The translations under genes were made by a program, and so were the position numbers. Shown here piece after piece: positions 4,138 to 57,252 of a DNA stretch of 57,252 nt. Positions within the stretch are counted from its first letter, which is position 1; every line of letters begins with the position of its first letter. Where the stretch lies: positions 1-57,252 of the forward strand of contig QGON01000047.1 in the NCBI GenBank assembly GCA_003660235.1. Reading direction: 5' to 3'. Below the pieces are notes generated by a model. That model was not told the DNA's origin. It saw only the letters and a program-made list of their open reading frames with translations, and ran no database searches. The DNA is from a bacterium endosymbiont of Escarpia laminata (GTDB taxonomy: Bacteria > Pseudomonadota > Gammaproteobacteria > Chromatiales > Chromatiaceae).

Positions 4138-5838
4138 TCACACCGCAGTCCGTTTTTGATTCTCCTGGAAGGCAACCATTTCAAGAATATTCTGCATTGA
4201 GTGGCACGAGTATCGGATGGTGTTGATGCTGATCTGGGTCTCTCCTGAGTGTCCCTCCTTCTGCAGCGCCTCCGCCTGTTCGATAACCGCCCCGTTCAGG
4301 ACGTGCAGTTTGTGATATTGCTGGAACAGCAGTTCGTGACGAGCCGCCAATGCATTTCTGAACTCCCGCTCAGCTTCATCCCTTTCCGGCTTGTCTGACG
4401 TTTGTTGCAGAATGGTTTCTAGATTCTCGCAGGCGTCAGCCTCGCGCATTGAACTTTTCCACCAGGCAATGAAACGTGATTTGTTGTCGGCCATGGTATT
4501 GACCGAGCCGGCCATTGCGTTGACTTCATCTCTTGCGCTTGGATAGAAGGGCAGACGCTCGGTGGTCTCTTCGTAGGCAAGCTGGTCCAGCATGCCGGCC
4601 ATCGACCGTAGCGGGCGAACGATACGCAGGGTGATGGAAATAGCAAAAACAATACCCAACAGTGTGGCCACGGCAACCGACCAGAGCATGAAGTGCTCCT
4701 TTTGATCCGATGAGATGTTGATCTCTTTTTCCATCTGCGCCATGACCTGATTGGCGGTCGCGACATTCTCCTTGACCAGTAACGTGATTTCAGACACCGC
4801 CCTCTGCATCTCCCAGGCCATGCGGTCAATATGGTCATTCTGTTCGACCAATGCAGTGAAGTCCCGGCGGTAGTTTTTCAAAAGACTCAGGAAGAGGGTT
4901 TTCTGTTCGGCGGTGATGGCCGACGGTTCAACCCGCGCGTGGATTCGATTCAGTTCCTGCAGGGCCATATCGACGTACTTCTTGTCATGCCTTAGCAGGT
5001 AGTCCTTTTCGCGCCGTCTCAATTGAAGAATATTATTTGCCAGCTCGGGAATGTGGTGGTTGTTCAGTATCGCCTCTATCCTATGGGCCGCCTGACGGAA
5101 AGGTCCCTTGCCGCCATGAATGTCCTCGTCGGAGAGCACCGTTCGGGCATAGGTTTCGAATGTCTCTCGATAGGTCTCTATCTCATGAAACAGCCGGGTT
5201 TTTACCCCCACCTCGAGTTGCGACTCCGCTGTTTTTCTCTCGAACTCCTGGATGAGATCGAGTACCCGCGCCAGGTATTGTTGTTCCCGCCTTAGCCCCA
5301 AGTCCTTCTCACTGCGGCGGATCTGGAGCAACTGCAGATAGAGGCGGTCTACCCTGAGGTGTCCGGCCATCGCCTCCAACTCATGGGCTGCATCACGAAA
5401 CGTACCCTGAAGGCCCGAATTGTGATCCAGTCCCATCTTGCGCCAGTCGAGCACCGTCGCCTGAAATTTCTGCTGATAGATTTTGAGCAGTTCGGTAATC
5501 CGCTCTGCAATATGAATCGACTCCGGGTCGATCCTGCCCAGATCGGCGGCGGCGAGCAGGGCTTGCTGCAACTGGCGATCCACTTCCCCGGCAAACGCCT
5601 CGTCCCGGTAGAGGAGGAATTCCTTTTCTGCCTGGCGCGCTCCCCTCATGCTGCTTTCGATTGACAACATATCGACTTTCTTGGCAACAAAGATATTCTG
5701 GAGCTGTTGATAGTCGCCCAGCGATTGCCGCAGGGTATCGTGATACTGCCAGATCACAATGAGAAAAATCAGACCGACAAGCCCAAAGCCGAAACCAATT
5801 TTTTCGCCTATGCGAAAGCTCCTGGTTAGTTTGCTCAT
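4138..5838 (-). CDS. Membrane receptor with helical bimodular-type sensor and HAMP, no output domain
   Basis: About 566 residues. A transmembrane helix near 14-34 (IGFGFGLVGLIFLIVIW) is followed by a ~340-residue helical periplasmic region with two similar modules (LRRSEKDLGLRREQQYL-type and LRRREKDYLLRHDKKYV-type segments), as in HBM sensors of chemoreceptors. A second membrane helix lies near 383-403 and a HAMP-like segment follows (RIVRPLRSMAGMLDQL). The remaining ~120 residues are helical, and I see no methyl-accepting hairpin, kinase, GGDEF or phosphatase domain. ATG at 5844 lies only 3 nt from GGGAG, whereas ATG at 5838 has 9-nt spacing, so the latter start is preferred. Sensor class is fairly sure, ligand unknown. 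Confidence 0.75.
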   Translation of the reverse strand: MSKLTRSFRIGEKIGFGFGLVGLIFLIVIWQYHDTLRQSLGDYQQLQNIFVAKKVDMLSIESSMRGARQAEKEFLLYRDEAFAGEVDRQLQQALLAAADLGRIDPESIHIAERITELLKIYQQKFQATVLDWRKMGLDHNSGLQGTFRDAAHELEAMAGHLRVDRLYLQLLQIRRSEKDLGLRREQQYLARVLDLIQEFERKTAESQLEVGVKTRLFHEIETYRETFETYARTVLSDEDIHGGKGPFRQAAHRIEAILNNHHIPELANNILQLRRREKDYLLRHDKKYVDMALQELNRIHARVEPSAITAEQKTLFLSLLKNYRRDFTALVEQNDHIDRMAWEMQRAVSEITLLVKENVATANQVMAQMEKEINISSDQKEHFMLWSVAVATLLGIVFAISITLRIVRPLRSMAGMLDQLAYEETTERLPFYPSARDEVNAMAGSVNTMADNKSRFIAWWKSSMREADACENLETILQQTSDKPERDEAEREFRNALAARHELLFQQYHKLHVLNGAVIEQAEALQKEGHSGETQISINTIRYSCHSMQNILEMVAFQENQKRTAV

Positions 5839-5959
5839 GTTCATGCACTCCCGAAGACTGGTTCTGTGCCCGGCGGCTCACCGAAACGCCACAGGAAATT
5901 TAAGGTTATCTGAGTGTGTCAGCTCAGTCCATATCTGCTTGCTTGATTAGATCCACCAT

Positions 5960-6694
5960 CTACCCTATTGCTGCCGCTGCAACAAGCAAAGCCGCTTCGC
6001 AAATCTCCACCAGTGCACCGGCGGTGTCTCCGGTGGTTCCGTCGATACGGGAGAGCATCATCTTCTGCAGTAGAAGCAGGGTGGCAATGGCGGTAAATAA
6101 CAGTGTTATCCCATCCCAGCCCCAGCCGATCAATGTCAGCAACGCGGTCAGCCCGTACACTACGAGACTTGCCTTTTCCGGTAGGTGTTGGACCAGAACC
6201 GATCCCAGTCCGTCTTTGCGCACGTAGGATGTGGTGAGAAAGAGCAGTAGCAGTTGTGCCCGGGCGATAAACGGGATCAGCAAGAGATAGCTCCAGTCCG
6301 ATTGCTGGATGATGACAGTCAAAGCGGCGAACTTGATCAGCAACAGCAACACCAGGATCACCACCGCAGCGGGACCGCAGTAGGGGTCCTTCATGATCGC
6401 CAGGGTGCGTTCCCGGTCTCCCGCGCCACCGATCCAGGCGTCGGCGCTGTCGGCAAGTCCATCCAGGTGCAGGGCGCCGGTGACCAGGGTCCAGAGAGAC
6501 AGCAGCAGAGCAGCGCTCAACATGGGGTCGATACCGGCCGTGAGCCATGTGGTGATCAACAACAGGATGCCGATGACCAGTCCCACCAGTGGGTAGTGGA
6601 GTAGAGAACGGCCAATTTCCTGTTCTGTGAGTTCAGGGTAGCGTGGGCTGGGCAGACGGGTCAGAAACTGCAGGGCAATGAAAAAGGGTTTCAT
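5960..6694 (-). CDS. cobS: Adenosylcobinamide-GDP ribazoletransferase (cobalamin synthase)
   Basis: A 244-residue integral membrane enzyme that joins adenosylcobinamide-GDP to alpha-ribazole(-phosphate), the last assembly step of cobalamin. Family motifs are clear: ALQFLTRLP at the N-terminus, GALHLDGLADSADAW (~92-106) with the acidic metal-binding cluster, and DPYCGPAAVV. Several hydrophobic helices follow. The ATG overlaps the cobC stop as ATGA, which indicates translational coupling. It is the last gene of the cobO-U-T-C-S string. Confidence 0.95.
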   Translation of the reverse strand: MKPFFIALQFLTRLPSPRYPELTEQEIGRSLLHYPLVGLVIGILLLITTWLTAGIDPMLSAALLLSLWTLVTGALHLDGLADSADAWIGGAGDRERTLAIMKDPYCGPAAVVILVLLLLIKFAALTVIIQQSDWSYLLLIPFIARAQLLLLFLTTSYVRKDGLGSVLVQHLPEKASLVVYGLTALLTLIGWGWDGITLLFTAIATLLLLQKMMLSRIDGTTGDTAGALVEICEAALLVAAAAIG

Positions 6695-9661: not shown

Positions 9662-10738
9662 TCAACTCCGGGAAGGCATCTCTTTGATGTAGACGTCCTG
9701 TTTGGCATAGGGGATTTCAACCCCTTCACGATTGAAGCACTTGTAGATTTCGGTTAGCAGTTGGTCGATCACCCGGCCCCGCAGACTCGGTTCATCAACC
9801 CAGCAGAGGAGCTGTAAGTCGAGGCTCGATGCTCCAAGGGCACGGAACCGGACTCGTGGCTTCGGATCTGCGCAGACACTTTGGGAATCGATGGCAATCC
9901 CCATCAGCAGCTCCTTTACCTGATCGATGTCCGAGCCATAGGCGACCCCAACCGGTATCCGGATGCGGTATTTTTCGTGAGGACCACCGGTTTCGTTGAT
10001 CACCTTGGAGTTGCCCATTACCGCGTTGGGAATGGTCAGCTCCACATCGTCCCGGGTCAACATGCGGGTGCTGCGGATGCCGATATGAGTCACCTCTCCG
10101 CGCTCCCCTGAGTCGAGCACGATGTAATCGCCGATCTTGTAAGGCGTGTCGGCAAGGATGAAGACGCCGGAAAAGAGATTCGACAGAGTGTCCTTGGCGG
10201 CGAAACCCACGGCGATGCCGACGATACCGGCGGAGGCGAGCCAGGCGCTCATGTCGATGTGCCAGGCATCGAAGATCAGGTAGATCGCAATGGCGATGAT
10301 GACAAGCAGTGCCAGATTCTGGAACAGAGGCAGGGTCTGGGTCTGGACGAACTGTAAGCGGTTACTGTCTGTCGCCAGACTTTTCAGGCTGGCTTTGGAA
10401 ATCGTGATGAAGAATCGCATCCAGACGAAGATGCCGATCGATCGCAGGATGGCAATGACTGTATCCTGCACTTCCAGGCTGACCGGCAGCAAGTGGTCTG
10501 CAATGGAGAAGCCCACCATGATGATGGTGTAGAAGATAGGGGTATAGAGTGCCTGGACGATGACGTCATCCAGTCGTGCAGTGGTGAGCTTGGTCAATCT
10601 TTGGAAGATGCCGAGTACGAACCAGGTGATAAGCTTGGCCAGCATGAGGGTAAGCATCACCACCAGGGCTGACTGGATATAGGGTTGGCCCGCAAAAAGA
10701 TCCAGCAGCGGCTGGATTTCAGACTCGATGAATTCCAT
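9662..10738 (-). CDS. MscS-family mechanosensitive ion channel
   Basis: A 358-residue small-conductance mechanosensitive channel. Four to five hydrophobic helices precede the pore-lining glycine/alanine-rich helix ASAGIVGIAVGFAAKDTLSNLFSG (residues ~188-211 as given by position), then the beta domain (DYIVLDSGERGEVTHIG) and the alpha/beta cytoplasmic domain (EIPYAKQDVYIKE at the end). It would release solutes from the cytoplasm on hypo-osmotic shock. The stop overlaps the frame of cobO, so the two may share a transcript, although there is no functional link. SD is weak at ATG 10738. Confidence 0.9.
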   Translation of the reverse strand: MEFIESEIQPLLDLFAGQPYIQSALVVMLTLMLAKLITWFVLGIFQRLTKLTTARLDDVIVQALYTPIFYTIIMVGFSIADHLLPVSLEVQDTVIAILRSIGIFVWMRFFITISKASLKSLATDSNRLQFVQTQTLPLFQNLALLVIIAIAIYLIFDAWHIDMSAWLASAGIVGIAVGFAAKDTLSNLFSGVFILADTPYKIGDYIVLDSGERGEVTHIGIRSTRMLTRDDVELTIPNAVMGNSKVINETGGPHEKYRIRIPVGVAYGSDIDQVKELLMGIAIDSQSVCADPKPRVRFRALGASSLDLQLLCWVDEPSLRGRVIDQLLTEIYKCFNREGVEIPYAKQDVYIKEMPSRS

Positions 10739-10785
10739 TTTTATTCCATGTTGTTTGCTGACATACCGGGCAATACTCCATCCTT

Positions 10786-10851
10786 GCAGGAGCCGCGCCC
10801 TCGCGGCGAATGCTCGATATTACGCCCAGCCGCGGCGCCGCTCCTACATAA
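10786..10851. repeat. GC-rich palindromic repeat, family D
   Basis: An imperfect inverted repeat begins TGCAGGAGCCGCGCC and ends GGCGCCGCTCCTACA. The inner arms TCGCGGCGA and CCGCGGC surround a short AT-rich centre. It lies in the mltD-mscS gap. Its TGTAGGAGCGGC-type ends resemble REP elements of many gammaproteobacteria. Only one copy was found in this window. Confidence 0.65.
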
Positions 10852-10859
10852 TGTACGAT

Positions 10860-12542
10860 TTAAAGTGTCTGAGCAGTGATGTCCACGTAGAGTTTCAGCC
10901 GTTGCCCTGGTTGTAGATATTTTTTTGGCAGACTGTTCCAGCGTTTAAGATCCGCCACCGTCACATTGAACCGGCTGGCAATGCGTGACAGGGAGTCACC
11001 CTTGCGTACCCGGTAGTTCACCGTGCTTTGGATGCCGGCAGGCTGTGTGTCGGGAAAAGAGACCCTGGATATTTTCTTCTGAGGAAGCCAGAGTACCAGT
11101 TTCTGTCCTGGGCGAATCGGATCACCCGGCGCCATGCCGTTCCATTTCGCCAGTTTTTTGTGGTTGACCTTAAAAGTCCGGGCGATATCCCAAAGATTGT
11201 CTCCCGCTTTTACCGTGTAGTTCTGTTTGCTGCCGCCACGGTTTTTATTTTGGATCTTTGCCTTGCGTTGCGTTGAACTCAGGGCGTAGTGGTTGAGCTT
11301 CTTGGTGGATACGGGAATCAACAGGTGTTTGCCTGCGCGGATATTATTCCCCCGCAGCTTGTTGACCTGCCGCAGGATTTTCGCAGTGGTGCCATGTTTT
11401 CTGGCGATCACGCTGAGGCTATCGCCGTTACGGATCTTGTAACGTTTCCAACGCAGACGCTTATCCGCAGGTAACTGGTTCAGCTGTGCCAGAAAATCAT
11501 CGATCTTGTCCAGCGGCAGTTGCAGTTGATGCGGGCCGTCCGGGTCGGTGGCCCAACGGTTGAAGCCGGGGTTGAGCTGGTAGAGATCCTGGATCGACAG
11601 GTCCGCCATCTCAGCGGCCAGGGCGAGGTCCAGTTGAGACTCGATTTCGATGGTCTCGAAGTAGGGGCTATTCGGAATCGGTTGCAGAGCGATGCCGTGG
11701 CTGTCGGGATCTGCAAACAGGGTGGCGATGGCCAACAGACGGGGTACGTAGCTGCTGGTCTCCTTGGGCAGTTTAAGCGACCAATAGTCGGTGGGTTTGC
11801 CCTTCTTGCGGTTGCGCTTGATCGCCTTGCGAACGGTGCCGCCGCCGGAATTGTAGGCTGCCAGAGCCAGCTCCCAATCGCCGTCGAACTGGCGGTTCAA
11901 AACCTGCAGATAGTCCAGGGCCGAGCGGGTGGAGGCGACAATGTCGCGGCGGCCGTCATACCACCAGTTCTGCTTCAGGCCATAGTAACGGCCCGTCGAG
12001 GGGATGAACTGCCAGATGCCGGCAGCCCTGCCGGGGGAGTAGGCGAAGGGTTGGAAGGCACTCTCCACGGCAGGCAGCAGGGCAAGCTCCGCCGGCATGC
12101 CGCGTTTGTCGATCTCTTCCAGAATGAAGTAGATGTAGGGTTCGGCCCGTTGCTGGATACGGTCGATATAGTCAGGGTGTTTGCGGAACCAGTTGATCTC
12201 CTGAGTAACCCTGGGGTACTGAGGGACCGTCAGGGTGAAACCGTCCCGCATTCGGCTCCAGGCATCTGTGGGTGGCTGGGGAGGTTGTGGGGAGACGGCT
12301 TCCATGGGCGTTGCGGAAGCGCTGCGCGGAAGCAGCTCAATAACTGCTTCATCCGACTTCAGAATGGGAAGTTCAGATACGGCGTTGCCCGCAATTATGA
12401 CCGGCTGTTCGGAAATAACCTCTGTCTGCCCGACTGGCTCAGGGGTATTCTCCGGCGATTTTTCCGGCAGAGAGTTGCAGGCTGTGAAAATTCCAACCAG
12501 TGGAGCGAGCAGAAAAAAGCGACTCAGTTTATAGTTCAACAT
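10860..12542 (-). CDS. mltD: Membrane-bound lytic murein transglycosylase D with three LysM domains
   Basis: About 560 residues. A lipoprotein signal with lipobox cysteine at residue 22 (GIFTAC) predicts an outer-membrane anchor. The SLT goose-lysozyme-like domain covers ~130-290 with catalytic glutamate in PAVESAFQP and the motifs GIWQFIPSTGRYYG and ALAAYNSGGG. Three LysM peptidoglycan-binding repeats follow (KIRNGDSLSVIARKHG, TVKAGDNLWDIARTFK, RVRKGDSLSRIASRFN). It cleaves glycan strands during wall turnover. The frame also opens at TTG 12551, but ATG 12542 starts the signal peptide. Confidence 0.93.
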   Translation of the reverse strand: MLNYKLSRFFLLAPLVGIFTACNSLPEKSPENTPEPVGQTEVISEQPVIIAGNAVSELPILKSDEAVIELLPRSASATPMEAVSPQPPQPPTDAWSRMRDGFTLTVPQYPRVTQEINWFRKHPDYIDRIQQRAEPYIYFILEEIDKRGMPAELALLPAVESAFQPFAYSPGRAAGIWQFIPSTGRYYGLKQNWWYDGRRDIVASTRSALDYLQVLNRQFDGDWELALAAYNSGGGTVRKAIKRNRKKGKPTDYWSLKLPKETSSYVPRLLAIATLFADPDSHGIALQPIPNSPYFETIEIESQLDLALAAEMADLSIQDLYQLNPGFNRWATDPDGPHQLQLPLDKIDDFLAQLNQLPADKRLRWKRYKIRNGDSLSVIARKHGTTAKILRQVNKLRGNNIRAGKHLLIPVSTKKLNHYALSSTQRKAKIQNKNRGGSKQNYTVKAGDNLWDIARTFKVNHKKLAKWNGMAPGDPIRPGQKLVLWLPQKKISRVSFPDTQPAGIQSTVNYRVRKGDSLSRIASRFNVTVADLKRWNSLPKKYLQPGQRLKLYVDITAQTL

Positions 12543-36061: not shown

Positions 36062-36089
36062 AAGGGGGGATTAATCCCCCCTTTTTTTT
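36062..36089 (+). terminator. Strong Rho-independent terminator of the ccoNOQP operon
   Basis: AAGGGGGGATT / AATCCCCCCTT forms a perfect 11-bp inverted repeat (36062-36083) running into T8 (36082-36089). It ends the transcription unit ccoN-O-Q-P-small ORF. Confidence 0.92.
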
Positions 36090-50619: not shown

Positions 50620-50988
50620 TTACTCCCGCTCTTTGAGCATGGCTGCCAAGTCCGCAAATGGGTTATGGGTGGTGCTGCGCGTATTCGTGTCGTTCGAGGT
50701 ATCACCGTATTCTGAATCGATGTGGCGTGAATGTTCGTTGTCATGGCAATAGAGGCAGAGCAACTCCCAGTTGCTGCCGTCCAGCGGATTATTGTCGTGA
50801 TTGTGATCGCGGTGATGAACCGTCAGTTCCCGCAGATTTTCGCGGGTAAACTCACGCGTACAGCGGCCGCAAATCCAGGGATACAATTTTAGCGCTCTCT
50901 CGCGGTAACCCTTCTCCCTCTCTTCCCGGGCACTGCGGGCCTGTGCAACGATGCGGTCAAGTTTGTCCGAAGAATTTTCTGATGTCAT
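50620..50988 (-). CDS. yajD: YajD family HNH nuclease
   Basis: 122 residues. It closely follows E. coli YajD: ALKLYPWICGRCTREF, ELTVHHRDHNHDNNP, SNWELLCLYCHDNEHS and the C-terminal NPFADLAAMLK. The HNH site is HH...N...H with two CxxC pairs for zinc. Its biological role in E. coli is not established. Standing at the edge of the accessory island, it appears to be core genome by sequence. Confidence 0.95.
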   Translation of the reverse strand: MTSENSSDKLDRIVAQARSAREEREKGYRERALKLYPWICGRCTREFTRENLRELTVHHRDHNHDNNPLDGSNWELLCLYCHDNEHSRHIDSEYGDTSNDTNTRSTTHNPFADLAAMLKERE

Positions 50989-51554
50989 GGTCGCGGTCCA
51001 AAAAAAGATGATTTCTGTTACAGCCTCAAATAGAGTTTGTGGCTCCTTTCAGATTTCGTCAAGCAGAACCTCATAGTCACCAAACTACTATCACCCCCTG
51101 ATATTCAACCGCCAGACGGGAGGAGTGACTAACCCCGATTGAGACAAATCCAGGGATGGAATAGTTCGGCAGGTTAATCTCCTGCAATTTAATACGCGGC
51201 TCTAGTCAAATGTACGCCCTTAGTACCCCGCCAGCGAAGTCTCCAAAAGAGCAGTGCCCTACTGCCACTTTCCTACCATTTTTTGTCATGGCTTTGCCGG
51301 TTTTCTGCAATCGGCCTGACTGACGGTGTCAGGTTTCGATCCATTTTCGTCTAGGCACGATTTCTTATTGATGACTAACCGGTGAAAGCGGGCAATCACT
51401 TCTCGAATAATTATGGCTCTTCGTTTCAATGCTTTTCCTCAAGAGATTTGAGTGTTGCTCAATCCGGTGGGTCAGGATATCCGTAAAGCCATAAACTTGT
51501 CGTTTACCACAATATTGTTTACTACTATGAGTAAATTTACTCAGTATCTTAAGT
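50989..51554. other. 566-bp gene-free junction before the NTPase island
   Basis: No supported gene on either strand. Composition shifts toward AT from about 51060. Short open frames here carry no Shine-Dalgarno or recognisable protein. It could hold the decayed edge of a mobile element, but no inverted repeat or att-like site stands out. The last 30 bp contain the palindrome at 51528-51543. Confidence 0.5.
51528..51543. promoter_or_regulatory. Perfect 16-bp palindrome upstream of the DUF4143 ATPase
   Basis: TGAGTAAATTTACTCA, a perfect dyad, ends 11 bp before the ATG at 51555. A TACTAT overlaps its left side as a possible -10. Upstream half-sites GTTTAC (51502 and 51517) repeat the core. Placement over the start region fits an operator for autorepression. 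Confidence 0.7.
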
Positions 51555-52814
51555 ATGGATTTTAAACGCAATCAAATCAACGTATTACTGCAACGTCTCA
51601 GCGAGTCGCCACGCTTCATGATTGTGGTTACTGGTCCACGACAGATAGGCAAAACCACAATGGTCCGCCAGGCACTTGATCCCGCCAGATCGACTTTCAT
51701 TGCAGCCGATCAACCATTGCCTGGTACCACCGATCCTTTTAGTGCGCAAGCGGAAAGTACATCACAATACATAGCTTCTGCCGGGGCACTGCCGACCGCC
51801 GAGTGGTTGGCACATCATTGGACACAGGCCCGTGCCAGGGCAAAAGCACTTCCAACTGGAGAGCAATATGTGCTGGCAATTGATGAAGTTCAAAAGATCC
51901 CACGATGGTCAGAACTGGTTAAAGGTTTGTGGGATGCTGACCGTGCCGATGGTCTGCCACCGCATATAGTCTTACTTGGCTCATCACCCTGGCTGGTGCA
52001 AAGAGGTTTAACGGAGAGCCTTGCTGGTCGATATGAGCCAATTCGCATGACACATTGGTCCTATCATGAGATGCAAAGCGCCTTCGACTTCTCCCTTGAA
52101 GAGTATGTATATTTTGGTGGTTATCCAGGCAGCGCAGATATTATCCGGGATGAATCACGTTGGCGGGAATATGTGCGGGGAGCCTTGATCCATCCGAACA
52201 TCGAAAAAGATATTCTCCAGATGACACGGGTCGACAAGCCAGCTTTGCTGAAGAGATTGTTTGAGCTGGGATGTGGCGCCTACTCTGGACAAATCATCTC
52301 CTATACCAAACTTCAGGGACAGTTACAGGATGCTGGCAACACAGTAACGCTTGCTCACTATCTCGATCTGCTTTCCCAGGCAGGATTGCTTACAGGGGTT
52401 TCAAAATACGCCGGGCAGAAACACCGACAACGGGCCTCCAGCCCTAAATTGAATGCCCTCAACACGGCATTGATTTCGGCACTGGCCGGATATACCTTCC
52501 AGGAAGCACAAAATGATCGAACCTTTTGGGGAAGACTGGTAGAAAGTGCCGTAGGAGCACATCTCATTAATACAGCATCTGATAACTGTACTATTCACTA
52601 TTGGCGCGAAAGTCCAGACGAAGTTGACTTTGTACTGAGTAATCTCCGTGGGCTCGTAGCCATCGAAGTAAAAAGCGGAGCTACTTTTTCTACGCCCAAA
52701 GGATTAAATGTCTTCACTACAAAATTCAAAGCGGCACGCCAGCTCATTGTCGGAGAGGGTGGAGTTCCTCTAGCAGAGTTCCTGTCACACCCTGCGGATG
52801 ATTGGATGGACTAA
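51555..52814 (+). CDS. AAA_14/DUF4143 ATPase
   Basis: 419 residues. P-loop VTGPRQIGKTTMVRQ (residues ~25-39), Walker B VLAIDEVQKIPRW (~110-122), LLGSSPWLVQRGLTESLAGRYEPI (sensor region) and C-terminal DUF4143 with ESAVGAHLIN, YWRESPDEVDFVL and AIEVKSGATF, the last resembling a PD-(D/E)xK-like fold. Such proteins are frequent in accessory DNA, with unknown cellular roles. No Shine-Dalgarno precedes the ATG. The end overlaps or abuts the next gene, so both form one unit. Confidence 0.88.
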   Translation: MDFKRNQINVLLQRLSESPRFMIVVTGPRQIGKTTMVRQALDPARSTFIAADQPLPGTTDPFSAQAESTSQYIASAGALPTAEWLAHHWTQARARAKALPTGEQYVLAIDEVQKIPRWSELVKGLWDADRADGLPPHIVLLGSSPWLVQRGLTESLAGRYEPIRMTHWSYHEMQSAFDFSLEEYVYFGGYPGSADIIRDESRWREYVRGALIHPNIEKDILQMTRVDKPALLKRLFELGCGAYSGQIISYTKLQGQLQDAGNTVTLAHYLDLLSQAGLLTGVSKYAGQKHRQRASSPKLNALNTALISALAGYTFQEAQNDRTFWGRLVESAVGAHLINTASDNCTIHYWRESPDEVDFVLSNLRGLVAIEVKSGATFSTPKGLNVFTTKFKAARQLIVGEGGVPLAEFLSHPADDWMD

Positions 52815-55800
52815 GGCCATGCTGTTAGTTCCCCGTCACGTTCGAAAAATAGACGATTCCGAAGGCTACCCTTTAGAGAATCCGCTCAAGGCGTTGGACG
52901 AATTTCGGGATCAAATCGCCTGGGTATTGTTAGGCGAGCCCGGAGCAGGCAAGACCGAAGCATTTAAAAAAGAAGCCAAAGATTCCGACAGTCAATATCT
53001 CACTATTTCCGAATTTATCTACACCGACGTGATTAGCCAATGGCAGGGAAAAACCCTGTTCCTCGACGGGCTGGATGAGGTTCGTGCAGGTTCTGACAGC
53101 GGCAGTGTTCTGGTGCAGATTCGGGGCAAGCTCAGGCATCTTGGTAATCCGAGGTTTCGTATTGCCTGCCGTGCAGCAGATTGGTACGGCTCGACAGATC
53201 ATGATGACATCAAAGACGCATCACCCGACGGTCAGGTTTTACGATTGCTGCTCGAGCCCCTCACCACGGTTGAGATAGTCGCCATCCTGCACGAAAATCA
53301 CAAAGTTAAAAAGCCAAGTGCCTTTATCGATAGAGCCCAAACACTGGGTGTGGATAACCTGCTGGGCAACCCTCAAACTCTTGGGTTGCTGGCCAAGGCA
53401 ATTCGAGACAGTCAATGGCCGGCAACACGCAAGGAGACATTCCAGCTCGCTTGCGAAACACTTGCCGAAGAATCGAATAAACGGCATCGTAATATTAAGC
53501 GCAACCGACCATATTCCACAGACAAATTGCTGGATGCAGCAGGACAGCTTTGCGCAGCAATGCTTTTGTCCGACAAGACAGGCGTTGCACTCGATTCGGA
53601 GCAGGCCGACGAACGTTTTCCTCATCTGGATGAGTATGCGCCTCCCGAAAGAGACATGGCGTATGAAGCCGTGCGCAGGCCACTTTTCCACCAGGAAAAA
53701 GAAGAGTGTTTTGTGCCAAGTCATCGCAGTATTGCGGAGTATCTCGCGGCACGCTGGCTGGCCACACGCATTGATGGTTACGGACTTCCCTTGGGACGCG
53801 TCCTGAATCTGATGCTGGGCAGAGATGGCCGGACGGTTGCCAGCCTGCGCGGACTCTACGGCTGGCTCACTCTACACTGTCAGGCAGCGCGTAACCGCTT
53901 GATTGAAGCCGATCCACTAACCGTTGTTGTCTATGGCGACGCCAAACCCCTATCTCCAACGGACAAACGCCATATCCTCACGGGGTTGAAGCGGGAAGCC
54001 AAACGATACGCTGCCTTTCACTGGGGTACCTCCTCCTCTCATTCTCTCGGCGCACTTGCTGAGCCGGAACTGGCGGAGGATTTCATTACAGCTTTGGAAT
54101 TGCCGGAACGCGACAACGCAACCCAGTCATTCACCGATTGTATTCTCGATATTATTTTCCAGGGAGAGGCCATACCCCAACTTGCCGCAGTTGTAAAAAA
54201 TGTCGCCACAGACGATTCTCGTTGGGGCAGAGTGCGAATGACCGCACTTCAGGCGTGGCTGAAGCTAGAGACAACATCTCATGAAGCACTCGCCATGCTC
54301 GATGCCATCACAGAGGGTCAAGTGAATGACCCTGATGACGAATTGGCTGGCCTGCTGCTTCTCCACCTCTATCCAGGGAGCATTGCTCCCGAGACTTTAT
54401 TTCGCTACTTGCACACTCCAAAACACTCCAGTTTATCGGGACATTTCGTCTGGTTTTGGGAACATGAAATGCCATCAAACGCTCCCGAATCCCATCTATC
54501 CACACTTCTCGACAAGCTTGCTGCCCGAGCCGATCCTTACCCCATATTCAACATCTACGAATTCCATCTCAGCGGAATGGTTGGCGCGCTGCTAGTTCGT
54601 GGCATCCAGCTGCAGGATGAACAGATAACCAATGAGCGCCTGTTTGCTTGGCTAGGTATTGGCGCCGACGAATTCGGCGAAATCCAGCGAGAAGATTCCC
54701 AGAGAATACAAATTGCTAATTGGCTTGAGGCTCATCCAAAACGCTACAAGGCGTTGCTACTACTCTGTTTCAACCAGTGTGACAAAGATGATCATCCTGG
54801 TTACTGCATTCAAATATGCGGGCACCGCTTGCATGGCGCGGCAAGCCCTAAAAATATTGGGCATTGGCATCTTGAACAAGCATCTTTAACAAGTCATGAC
54901 ACGCTTGCACAGATCCATCTTTCAGAAGCAGTAAACACCCTGATGTACCCATTGGGTAATAGTGCGCTTACGCTGGAACAAATTGAAGACTGGGCTAATA
55001 ACTATCCAGACAGAATGCGGTGGCTACAATCGCTGCTCGTTTGGGATATTCCAGAATGGCGATTGGAGCGAGCCGAGAAAGCAAGAGGTCGCAACCAACA
55101 GCGCGCCAACGATAGACGGGATCGTACTATTCATATTAGTGAGTATATCTCTAACATTAAGACAGGAACGGCCAGTACAAATATCATGCATCATTTAGCG
55201 GGCATCTGGAAAAATCATTACATCGATATTCGGGGCGAATCACCATCTGAACGTTTCGATAACTATTGTGAAAACGGGCAGGAAGTCCTTACCGCTGCTG
55301 AATCCGGTTTTCTCCATTGCCCTGTACGGACTGATCTACCAACCGTTGCCGAAATCATTGGTCTTGCCATTAATCAGCGAGAGCACTACATACGCATGCC
55401 GTGCCTGATCGGCATGGAGTTGCGATGGCAGCAAGGGTCATCGCAAATTCACTCTCTTTCAGACGATGCCCTACGCTGTATGGTCGCCTTCCGGCTAACC
55501 TATGGTGCGGACAATACGCCTGATTGGTTCACTCATCTCGTCGTCGAGCACCCGACCCTGGTCGCTGAAGTCCTCATCGACTATGCTGGCGCAGTTCTGA
55601 AAACCCAGCAACTGCACATCGATTCTATCTATCAGTTCGAACACGATCCAGACTATCGCATGGTTGCCCTCATTGCAGTACCAATAATATTGAAGCATTT
55701 TCCAGTCCGTTCCAGAGCCGACCACCTACGCCATTTGGAATACTTACTAAAAGCGGCCTTGCGCTATCACATTGACCAGTTACCAATGCTCTTGAAGAAA

Positions 55801-56886
55801 AAGATGGCTTTGAAAAGCATTGATGTTGCCCAAAAGATTTACTGGCTGACAGCAGGTATGCTGTTTGACCCCGGACAGTACGAAGCCACTCTCTGGCAAT
55901 ACATCGGTAAATCATGGACACGCGCCAAGCATCTGTCTGGATTCCTGAGAGGAGATTTCCGCGGTATGAGCACCAATTACCGCCTATCGGCAAGCACTAT
56001 TGGCAAACTCATTGAGTTGCTCGCACCGCACGCCGAACTGGAATGGCCACGTGGAGGCGGTGTGGTCAGCGAGACAATGCGGCGAGGCGATCATATCCGC
56101 TCTTTGGTCAATCGACTTGGAGCGTCAGGTACGGAAGAGGCTGCCGGGGAAATAGAGAGGCTACTCGGAGTCCCTGTCCTGAAAAAACTGAAGTTTGCGC
56201 TGGAAGAGGCTCAACACCAATTGCGTTTGAAACAGCGCGAAAGCGAGTTCCGCTATCTTCCTCTCAAGGGAGTCGCCAAAATCCTCGCTAACGCAGAACC
56301 AGGCAACACCCCCGACCTTGCCGCTCTCGTATTGGATTATCTGAGTGAAATTGCCAGGGAAATCCGACAAGATAATGATGATGGGTATAGGTTATTCTGG
56401 ACCGAAGCTGATCCAAACTGTCCAAAGAAAGAGAATAGTTGCCGTGATGCCCTGCTTACCAAGCTGCGGCCTCGTCTTACCCCCTTTGGCATTGGCTGCC
56501 AACCAGAGGTGGATCATGTCAATGACAAACGAGCCGATATTCTCGTGTCATACGACAATCGGTTAGAATTGCCAATTGAAATCAAACGAGACAGTAATAA
56601 GACGCTCTGGATTGCACTGCGCTCTCAGTTGATAGAGCAATACTCAATTGCCCCAAAAGCTGCGGGACATGGCGTGTACCTCGTATTCTGGTTCGGGGGT
56701 GAACATATTCCCAGTGCTACTGACGGCGGGAAAAAACCACGTACTCCGGAAGAACTGAAAAGCCGATTAGAAGACCAACTTACCCCCACGGAACAGCGGC
56801 AAATATTCGTTCGTGTATTGGACGTAAGTTGGCCAGCGCCAACTGGTGTGAAGACATTGACATCGGCTATTTGTTCAAAAGAATAA
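52798..56886 (+). CDS. NACHT-like NTPase with C-terminal PD-(D/E)xK nuclease
   Basis: 1362 residues from ATG 52798 (overlapping the upstream gene by 17 bp), or 1355 from ATG 52819, which follows the upstream stop by 4 bp. The NTPase core is near the N-terminus: WVLLGEPGAGKTEAF (~42-56) and TLFLDGLDEVRAG (~91-103), then CRAADWYG. A long helical-repeat-like middle spans ~250-1180. The C-terminal domain has D1247 in RADILVS and E1261-x-K1263 in LPIEIKRDSNK, then LRSQLIEQYS: a PD-(D/E)xK nuclease pattern. STAND proteins with nuclease effectors are antiphage; here the effector is C-terminal. Role inferred. Confidence 0.8.
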   Translation: MIGWTKAMLLVPRHVRKIDDSEGYPLENPLKALDEFRDQIAWVLLGEPGAGKTEAFKKEAKDSDSQYLTISEFIYTDVISQWQGKTLFLDGLDEVRAGSDSGSVLVQIRGKLRHLGNPRFRIACRAADWYGSTDHDDIKDASPDGQVLRLLLEPLTTVEIVAILHENHKVKKPSAFIDRAQTLGVDNLLGNPQTLGLLAKAIRDSQWPATRKETFQLACETLAEESNKRHRNIKRNRPYSTDKLLDAAGQLCAAMLLSDKTGVALDSEQADERFPHLDEYAPPERDMAYEAVRRPLFHQEKEECFVPSHRSIAEYLAARWLATRIDGYGLPLGRVLNLMLGRDGRTVASLRGLYGWLTLHCQAARNRLIEADPLTVVVYGDAKPLSPTDKRHILTGLKREAKRYAAFHWGTSSSHSLGALAEPELAEDFITALELPERDNATQSFTDCILDIIFQGEAIPQLAAVVKNVATDDSRWGRVRMTALQAWLKLETTSHEALAMLDAITEGQVNDPDDELAGLLLLHLYPGSIAPETLFRYLHTPKHSSLSGHFVWFWEHEMPSNAPESHLSTLLDKLAARADPYPIFNIYEFHLSGMVGALLVRGIQLQDEQITNERLFAWLGIGADEFGEIQREDSQRIQIANWLEAHPKRYKALLLLCFNQCDKDDHPGYCIQICGHRLHGAASPKNIGHWHLEQASLTSHDTLAQIHLSEAVNTLMYPLGNSALTLEQIEDWANNYPDRMRWLQSLLVWDIPEWRLERAEKARGRNQQRANDRRDRTIHISEYISNIKTGTASTNIMHHLAGIWKNHYIDIRGESPSERFDNYCENGQEVLTAAESGFLHCPVRTDLPTVAEIIGLAINQREHYIRMPCLIGMELRWQQGSSQIHSLSDDALRCMVAFRLTYGADNTPDWFTHLVVEHPTLVAEVLIDYAGAVLKTQQLHIDSIYQFEHDPDYRMVALIAVPIILKHFPVRSRADHLRHLEYLLKAALRYHIDQLPMLLKKKMALKSIDVAQKIYWLTAGMLFDPGQYEATLWQYIGKSWTRAKHLSGFLRGDFRGMSTNYRLSASTIGKLIELLAPHAELEWPRGGGVVSETMRRGDHIRSLVNRLGASGTEEAAGEIERLLGVPVLKKLKFALEEAQHQLRLKQRESEFRYLPLKGVAKILANAEPGNTPDLAALVLDYLSEIAREIRQDNDDGYRLFWTEADPNCPKKENSCRDALLTKLRPRLTPFGIGCQPEVDHVNDKRADILVSYDNRLELPIEIKRDSNKTLWIALRSQLIEQYSIAPKAAGHGVYLVFWFGGEHIPSATDGGKKPRTPEELKSRLEDQLTPTEQRQIFVRVLDVSWPAPTGVKTLTSAICSKE

Positions 56887-56917: not shown

Positions 56918-57006
56918 TACTTTGTCAGATTACACCATGACGTAACTAGCTGAATAATATAAAATATATGTCGTGAAACTCATAAACGATTATTGAAGGG
57001 AAGAGG

Positions 57007-57034
57007 TCAAATGACAACCGCCAAGGTCATTTGA
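57007..57034. repeat. 9-bp inverted repeat near a transposon end
   Basis: TCAAATGAC (57007-57015) and GTCATTTGA (57026-57034) with a 10-nt loop. It lies 50 bp before the transposase reading frame. Such hairpins near IS ends can block incoming transcription; the element's real end is not seen. Confidence 0.45.
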
Positions 57035-57083
57035 ATTACCTAATAGATGCATAAGCAGTATTGATTATATTGCGAAGCGATTC

Positions 57084-57252
57084 GTGAATTTTCAGCACCG
57101 TTTCGAATCGCATTTTCGAAGCAAAACGAGGTCCGTCTTCCAACCAGCGACACATTACCTAAAAGGCCTGATGCAAGCGCAGAAAAAGAACATGGAACGC
57201 ATGGAGGAAGTCGTTGTAGAAGCGGATGATCAACGTCTGCAACATATGCTCA
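57084..57252 (+). CDS. Transposase N-terminal fragment (IS701-like), cut by window edge
   Basis: The frame HFRSKTRSVFQPATHYL, KGLMQAQKKNMERMEEV and ADDQRLQHML stays open to the last base. It resembles the start of IS701-type DDE transposases (FRTKTRS...HYL.GL.Q..KKNMERMEE). GTG 57084 is one possible start; upstream an ATG at ~57048 is out of frame, so either a non-ATG start or a frameshift is involved. The catalytic region is outside the window. It bounds the accessory island on the right. Confidence 0.75.
   Translation, partial: MNFQHRFESHFRSKTRSVFQPATHYLKGLMQAQKKNMERMEEVVVEADDQRLQHML

Follow-up and report, generated by a model that had tools for sequence, protein, structure and literature searches.

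Several described families lie close to the locus analysed here. EruA (NF058535) and HyoA (NF058534) are related NACHT antiphage proteins defined by NCBIfam models; in Lamassu, LmuA has LmuB as its partner; and PDC-S01 of PADLOC is, as we read its name, a single-gene candidate. According to the available part of PMC12988326, PDC-S01 ranks fourth in frequency among the defences of prokaryotes, and experimental validation is pending for most PDCs. Bacterial NACHT proteins are described with the effector at the N-terminus and the sensor at the C-terminus (PMC12169576, available part), and those of clade 6 (bNACHT25/32) combine a NACHT domain with a PD-(D/E)xK nuclease and are, like the protein studied here, similar to NOD-like receptors (NLRs). 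We analysed a window of 57,252 nucleotides (nts), which is the whole stretch of contig QGON01000047.1 from a bacterium endosymbiont of Escarpia laminata (assembly GCA_003660235.1), and describe in it an operon composed of a DUF4143 ATPase gene and an EruA-family NACHT gene. EruA and PDC-S01, to which the two proteins belong, are already named families, and the findings on the operon, its palindrome and the protein architecture are new here.

The upstream open reading frame (ORF) of the pair is located at 51555-52814 on the forward strand and encodes 419 amino acids (aa); the downstream ORF, at 52798-56886 on the same strand, encodes 1362 aa. The two overlap by 17 nts when the large gene is started from its first ATG and are separated by 4 nts when it is started from the second (52819, residue M8), in agreement with the first-pass annotation, which was made from the sequence alone and placed a DUF4143 ATPase and a NACHT-like NTPase on one strand. 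The 419-aa protein scored above the Pfam cut-offs for both AAA_14 and DUF4143 and met the PADLOC PDC-S01 model (PDLC04791) over residues 1-418 (E = 9e-165); its partner and its palindrome are features found here, and neither is mentioned for PDC-S01 in the available parts of PMC12988326 and PMC13356809. The 1362-aa protein passed the curated cut-off of NF058535, "antiphage protein EruA" (1087.1 bits against 1000), with residues 27-1344 covering positions 12-1318 of 1318 in the model, and is paired with DUF4143, unlike the top scorers L046 and L047. For HyoA it scored 192 bits, far under the cut-off of 1200. All 35 members scanned (the window protein and 34 paired relatives) matched NF058535 at E = 1e-10, and 34 of them matched NF058534. 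When six further paired members were scored singly, L348, L085 and L100 passed the NF058535 cut-off, and L111 (967), L117 (911) and L128 (928) were below it. The first-pass annotation had proposed an undescribed defence system, and this wording has to be given up because the NACHT protein is above the EruA cut-off and the ATPase is PDC-S01. We found no paper describing the antiphage EruA or HyoA in the literature searched, whose coverage of subscription papers and preprint servers was slight, and within the same literature the DUF4143-EruA pairing and the palindrome appear undescribed. An E. coli regulator also named EruA is unrelated.

The DUF4143 and EruA genes form a conserved operon. One genome per species (84,980 species) was scanned for EruA relatives using a single peptide pattern near the C-terminus, taken from an alignment of six EruA rows (the window, known to be paired, four lone and one cut), and the best 80 of 231 relatives were analysed; an earlier scan of the same genome contigs with the single window protein gave no relatives. 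Of the best 80, 67 carry a DUF4143 gene immediately upstream in the same orientation, 10 lack it, and 3 cut loci could not be judged. Counted among the 67 are L144, where it shares one frame with EruA, L086, where it is broken, and L102 and L104, where remnants are left. The hosts of these 67 loci belong to 12 phyla, with 42 loci in Pseudomonadota. The co-occurrence that the first-pass annotation had asked about is therefore observed, and the pair is conserved as a unit, as it supposed. Among 369 genomes of the class that were sampled independently, the pair was seen twice, in the window and in genome G273, where the ORFs overlap by a similar 16 nts. In 54 of 59 junctions, the EruA gene could start at a codon that overlaps the DUF4143 stop codon by 4 nts; the window has no such codon.

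In a FastTree phylogeny of 94 EruA rows (69 paired, 20 lone and 5 of unknown state), pairing required 6 changes compared with 18.4 in shuffles, and every pair was found within one clade of 82 rows, which also includes 10 lone EruA. The distances of the two proteins correlated (Mantel r = 0.79 over 60 pairs, a value reached by none of 1000 permutations), and the correlation of host-phylum difference with the protein distances was -0.01 and 0.05 for the two. The two genes therefore seem to move together between phyla. Viral contigs scanned with the same EruA alignment gave four loci, none with DUF4143. In L144 (3988-9432), the DUF4143 and EruA genes are joined in one open frame without a linker, which is a true fusion or an indel artefact; we set it aside as a sign of a protein complex because a single indel in a metagenome-assembled genome could create such a frame.

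The perfect 16-bp dyad reported in the first-pass annotation was present. This palindrome, TGAGTAAATTTACTCA, is located at 51528-51543, ends 11 nts before the DUF4143 ATG and is the putative operator of that gene. When up to 3 mismatches are allowed, it has no second match in the window, and a match of this kind is present in 9 of 100 shuffles; the exact core occurs once in the 4.25-Mb genome. Gapless palindromes with arms of at least 8 nts numbered 3 in the whole window compared with 0.93 expected, so that finding one is not in itself unusual; in the 120 nts before the gene, 0.003 are expected. Another perfect palindrome, of 22 bp (AAGGGGGGATTAATCCCCCCTT), is located at 36062-36083.

We determined the occurrence of the core TGAGTAANNTTACTCA in the 70 nts ahead of the DUF4143 start, which was placed by alignment 4 residues ahead of the conserved R5 (mechanically in one analysis). 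After 6 cut loci and 2 with a degraded DUF4143 gene were dropped, 59 pair loci were assessable, and 53 of them had the core at up to 2 mismatches (25 perfect, 19 with one and 9 with two; 0.04 for shuffled upstream sequences), corresponding to 34 of 37 loci in Pseudomonadota and 19 of 22 in other phyla. A conserved palindrome thus stands close before the first gene, as is expected of an autoregulated operon. None of 20 lone EruA genes had it (best, 4 mismatches), and 1 of 20 random control regions did. Among 14 further PDLC04791-type loci, 8 carried it: 4 without EruA in the sequence covered, G273 with EruA, and 3 cut after DUF4143. It was also found in 2 of 4 plasmid or phage DUF4143 genes without an adjoining EruA (Bacteroides and Collinsella, one mismatch); the Thermus and gut-phage genes have 3-mismatch versions only. 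Since it is absent from the 20 lone EruA loci and present at some lone DUF4143 genes, the palindrome goes with DUF4143, not with EruA. The 369 class genomes contain the exact core at 11 places and the reversed control at 6; a DUF4143 gene immediately follows 4 of these cores, and a fifth is cut by a contig end.

The consensus over 62 sites was TTAcnnTatTGAGTAAatTTACTCAntAgngTAA. The palindrome of the pair loci is mostly centred at -24 to -30; the window copy is nearer to the start. Outside the core, the arms vary yet stay complementary to about 20 nts from the centre: at offsets 9-20, 507 Watson-Crick cells were observed compared with 357 expected (none of 1000 shuffles reached this). Mismatch cells were fewer than expected, with 62 G-T (72 expected), 43 A-C (62) and 132 others (253). 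Both a hairpin and a site recognised by a dimer would show such complementary variation, and the mismatch types do not decide between them. Half-sites are repeated in several DUF4143 upstream regions.

Several other arrangements of palindromes were observed. Two exact copies, centred near -30 and -96, are present in L119, L124, L127, L137 and L156, and one more copy is located about 730-750 nts upstream in L124 (1 mismatch) and L156 (exact). An extra core just after EruA, at L138:5038 (exact) and L136:10121 (1 mismatch), precedes the next plus-strand ORF (5109-6092 and 10190-11284, respectively) by about 55 nts, which suggests a third gene under the same control. L075 encodes a DUF4143 protein of 38% identity with the helix TDLVKHYL and has an analogous but different near-palindrome, CTAGTAAAATAACTAG, upstream. 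In genome G588, which has 15 DUF4143 matches, a gene of another subfamily (L224) has a different 51-bp palindrome (25-nt arms, 1-nt centre) close before its start, so that palindromic sites may be more general in the DUF4143 family.

A winged-helix-like stretch was assigned by eye to residues 236-275 of the DUF4143 protein (52260-52379), containing NTVTLAHYLDLL. The core was present in 55 of 66 genes with a T[TV]TLA helix and in 8 of 47 with other helices. The latter 8 consist of 3 truncated proteins and 5 with other or near-variant helices, and the remaining 39 are at 4 or more mismatches. Among DUF4143 genes found with Pfam, 28 with other helices likewise had at least 4 mismatches, and one with a T[TV]TLA helix had 3. 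This association fits DNA binding by the DUF4143 protein, and its winged-helix-like stretch probably binds the palindrome. We did not accept the covariation as proof of binding, because it is confounded by descent and broken by L106, L108 and L188. Partner or regulator, the role given to the DUF4143 protein in the first-pass annotation, is the best reading of these results.

The DUF4143 protein has a Walker A motif at G27-T35 (51633-51659), whose lysine is kept in 61 of 61 rows and whose listed positions are kept in 58-61, and a Walker B motif (D110 and E111, 51870-51887; 61/61). Toward its C-terminus, E330, D358, E371 and K373 (52542-52673) make up a PD-(D/E)xK signature, the first two residues in 64 of 64 rows and the last two in 63 (rows L144, L102 and L104 left out). 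Judged from these residues, the protein bears a second intact nuclease signature besides that of EruA. Both proteins, according to the residue counts in each, are therefore NTPases joined to a C-terminal PD-(D/E)xK signature.

For EruA (52798-56886, or from 52819), residues were counted over 68 rows of the pair clade, including the window and leaving out L078. The P-loop GEPGAGKT (residues 46-53, 52933-52956) has G49, G51 and K52 in all 68, and the Walker B motif LDGLDE (residues 89-94, 53062-53079) has D90, D93 and E94 in all 68. The same holds for H309 and E314 of HRSIAEYLAA (53722-53751), which resembles the motif of the NACHT-associated winged helix. No Pfam model matched the large protein even at E = 1, NACHT included, so that the NACHT assignment is based on NCBIfam and structure prediction. 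The model of residues 1-640 (mean pLDDT, the predicted local confidence score, 88.8) gave 16 matches in the PDB at E of 0.001 or less, namely NLRC4, NLRP3 and NLRP14 entries and two mouse oocyte cytoplasmic lattice entries. EruA is thus predicted to have an NLR-like NACHT fold with the P-loop and Walker B at the N-terminus. Searches of the PDB by sequence were uninformative, and PHROGs gave no match.

The model of residues 641-1362 (mean pLDDT 87.7, predicted template modelling score 0.59) is helical to about residue 1230, followed by three strands, a helix and a strand. The alpha-helical solenoid (approximately 53785-56367), which had weak importin- or catenin-like matches, is a candidate sensor. 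In the C-terminal domain (56398-56832), E1212 belongs to the last of the long helices, the second strand carries D1247, the third carries both E1261 and K1263, and Q1277 follows on the helix after it. All 68 rows have D1247 and K1263, and 67 have E1261, so that the three residues singled out in the first-pass annotation are indeed conserved. The end of this model matched SfsA, which has the PD-(D/E)xK fold (Foldseek probability 0.99, E = 0.13); the remaining matches listed were mostly weak alpha-solenoids. A weak PADLOC match to LmuA (residues 1209-1276, E = 1.9e-05) covers only 68 residues around the nuclease core, and Lamassu differs in that the partner of EruA here is DUF4143. From the model and the conserved E...D...ExK residues, the C-terminus has a PD-(D/E)xK core fold and is a predicted nuclease at about residues 1201-1345. 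The order of an N-terminal P-loop, a helical middle and a C-terminal nuclease, which the first-pass annotation had described, is thus upheld by structure models and conservation. With the P-loop already at residue 46 and the nuclease at the other end, EruA does not have the order of N-terminal effector and C-terminal sensor, and the inverted order is common to the EruA relatives aligned here. This order genuinely sets EruA apart from the bacterial NACHT proteins described in the available part of PMC12169576.

The nearest pair, L348 (67% and 43% identity), is on an IMG/VR contig of phage or prophage origin, and its EruA ATG directly follows the DUF4143 stop codon. The order there is lambda-like tail genes, type I restriction-modification genes (HsdM, HsdS and HsdR), a patatin and a cyclase of the cyclic-oligonucleotide-based antiphage signalling system (CBASS), a WYL gene and the pair. 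Around lone EruA genes, inspection of ORFs by eye suggested restriction genes (L155), phage-like DNA (L163) and integrase-bearing DNA (L047 and L150). When 150 of the 208 flank ORFs of the 67 pair loci were compared with 150 of 184 control ORFs, the PADLOC families listed for the flanks included BrxL, PglZ, C3a187, PDC-S24, PDC-M05A and PDC-S01. On placement in a defence island, which the first-pass annotation considered, the results are mixed: L348 lies beside defence genes, and the PADLOC flanks are not clearly richer than controls among the families listed; we rejected such counts as proof of defence. In the window, the GC content at 51-57 kb is 0.47-0.54 compared with 0.57-0.60 at 45-50 kb, and the region is richer in AT as first noted. 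The transposase of the first-pass annotation corresponds to a forward-strand repeat at 56960-57252, which occurs 7 times in the genome, is probably an insertion sequence and runs to the contig end, which lies inside it. Left of the module, the first ORF listed (50620-50988, reverse strand) resembles by eye a small HNH-type endonuclease.

We consider, with a probability of about 0.6, that the pair is a self-contained, self-regulated two-gene NLR-like antiphage module. This reading is based on operon conservation, co-divergence, active-site signatures, predicted folds, the palindrome tied to DUF4143, the EruA annotation and the defence context of L348, and on the 6.6-fold increase, with a plasmid present, of a Thermus thermophilus AAA 14/DUF4143/HTH (helix-turn-helix) gene downstream of a CRISPR locus (PMC4406477, available part). 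We infer DNA binding, repression, coupling, nuclease activity, oligomerisation, sensing and defence by the pair in the following way. The DUF4143 ATPase would bind the palindrome in its own promoter and keep the operon low until infection, with EruA translation probably coupled to the DUF4143 gene. Infection would relieve the repression, and the EruA solenoid, alone or with the ATPase, would recognise a phage signal. Upon sensing, the NACHT domain would oligomerise, and the C-terminal PD-(D/E)xK DNase would degrade DNA, leading to cell suicide or phage arrest. A wider and tentative proposal, possible but short of probable, is that ATPases of the TGAGTAA-type DUF4143 (PDC-S01) group form a new class of sensor-switch that reads DNA. 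These would resemble signal transduction ATPases with numerous domains (STAND), with a winged helix and a nuclease domain of their own; they would read the palindrome, conserved from phylum to phylum, in their own promoter, be released on entry of foreign DNA, and in this clade have captured an NLR-like nuclease as a dedicated effector.

Several results weigh against the two-gene antiphage module. The palindrome is missing at 2 mismatches in 6 of the 59 pair loci (five have it at 3 and one at 6) and in 6 of the 14 further PDLC04791-type loci, and 6 of the 11 exact cores in the 369 genomes are not near DUF4143. In the window, the outer arms are only partly preserved around the core. L106, L108 and L188 have other helices, so that the match of helix and palindrome is imperfect; L188, a distant DUF4143, has the exact core about 40 nts before its frame. 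The 10 EruA homologues without DUF4143 have upstream sequence present and include the one of highest identity in the scan (L083, 44%). These, together with L046 and L047, the remnants in L102 and L104 and the broken copy in L086, mean that EruA does not need DUF4143 everywhere. The NLR matches, although confident, have low TM-scores (0.27-0.40 by query), Foldseek of the C-terminal half gave no match at E of 0.001 or less, and 42 PADLOC families were matched in flanks compared with 43 in controls, with no clear excess among the 25 listed for each.

EruA may by itself be a complete one-gene defence, merely co-transcribed with DUF4143 as an independent accessory that has its own regulon or is a second defence or addiction gene. 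This is favoured by the 10 lone genes among 77 assessable loci, by the lack of DUF4143 beside L046 and L047, which score best with NCBIfam in the class sample, by the absence of an NCBIfam model that names the partner, and by the 15 PDLC04791-type genes in the 369 genomes, of which only 2 were seen beside EruA and 3 more are cut by a contig end. Against the co-divergence, the frequent 4-nt overlap and the retention across 12 phyla, however, we regard it as unlikely. In a closer, toxin-antitoxin-like relation, DUF4143 would inactivate EruA by direct contact and repress the operon, and infection would destroy DUF4143. The order of regulator and then effector, the palindrome and the gene overlap agree with this, but 10 loci retain EruA in the absence of DUF4143, and L102 and L104 retain it beside remnants, which makes such a relation decidedly improbable.

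The palindrome might instead be an RNA hairpin, or be bound by a host factor and not by DUF4143. The compensated variation of the outer arms is what a hairpin would produce, and the lesser depletion of G-T cells than of A-C or other mismatches leans weakly to RNA; this lean is small and not decisive, and the repeated half-sites are as for a bound protein. A host factor is difficult to reconcile with the same site following DUF4143 in many phyla, and we judge the two possibilities together quite unlikely. A non-defence role, as a housekeeping or mobile-element maintenance ATPase pair, agrees with the lack of a clear excess in the PADLOC flanks and is extremely improbable given the EruA annotation, the NLR-like fold and the phage or prophage contig with defence genes. 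The two-gene antiphage module is the reading we prefer.

A conserved operator in one subfamily of PDC-S01 would give a concrete and cheap handle, namely a 16-bp DNA to shift. For an NLR-like immune protein with a C-terminal nuclease and a likely co-travelling regulator, how such proteins stay silent becomes testable.

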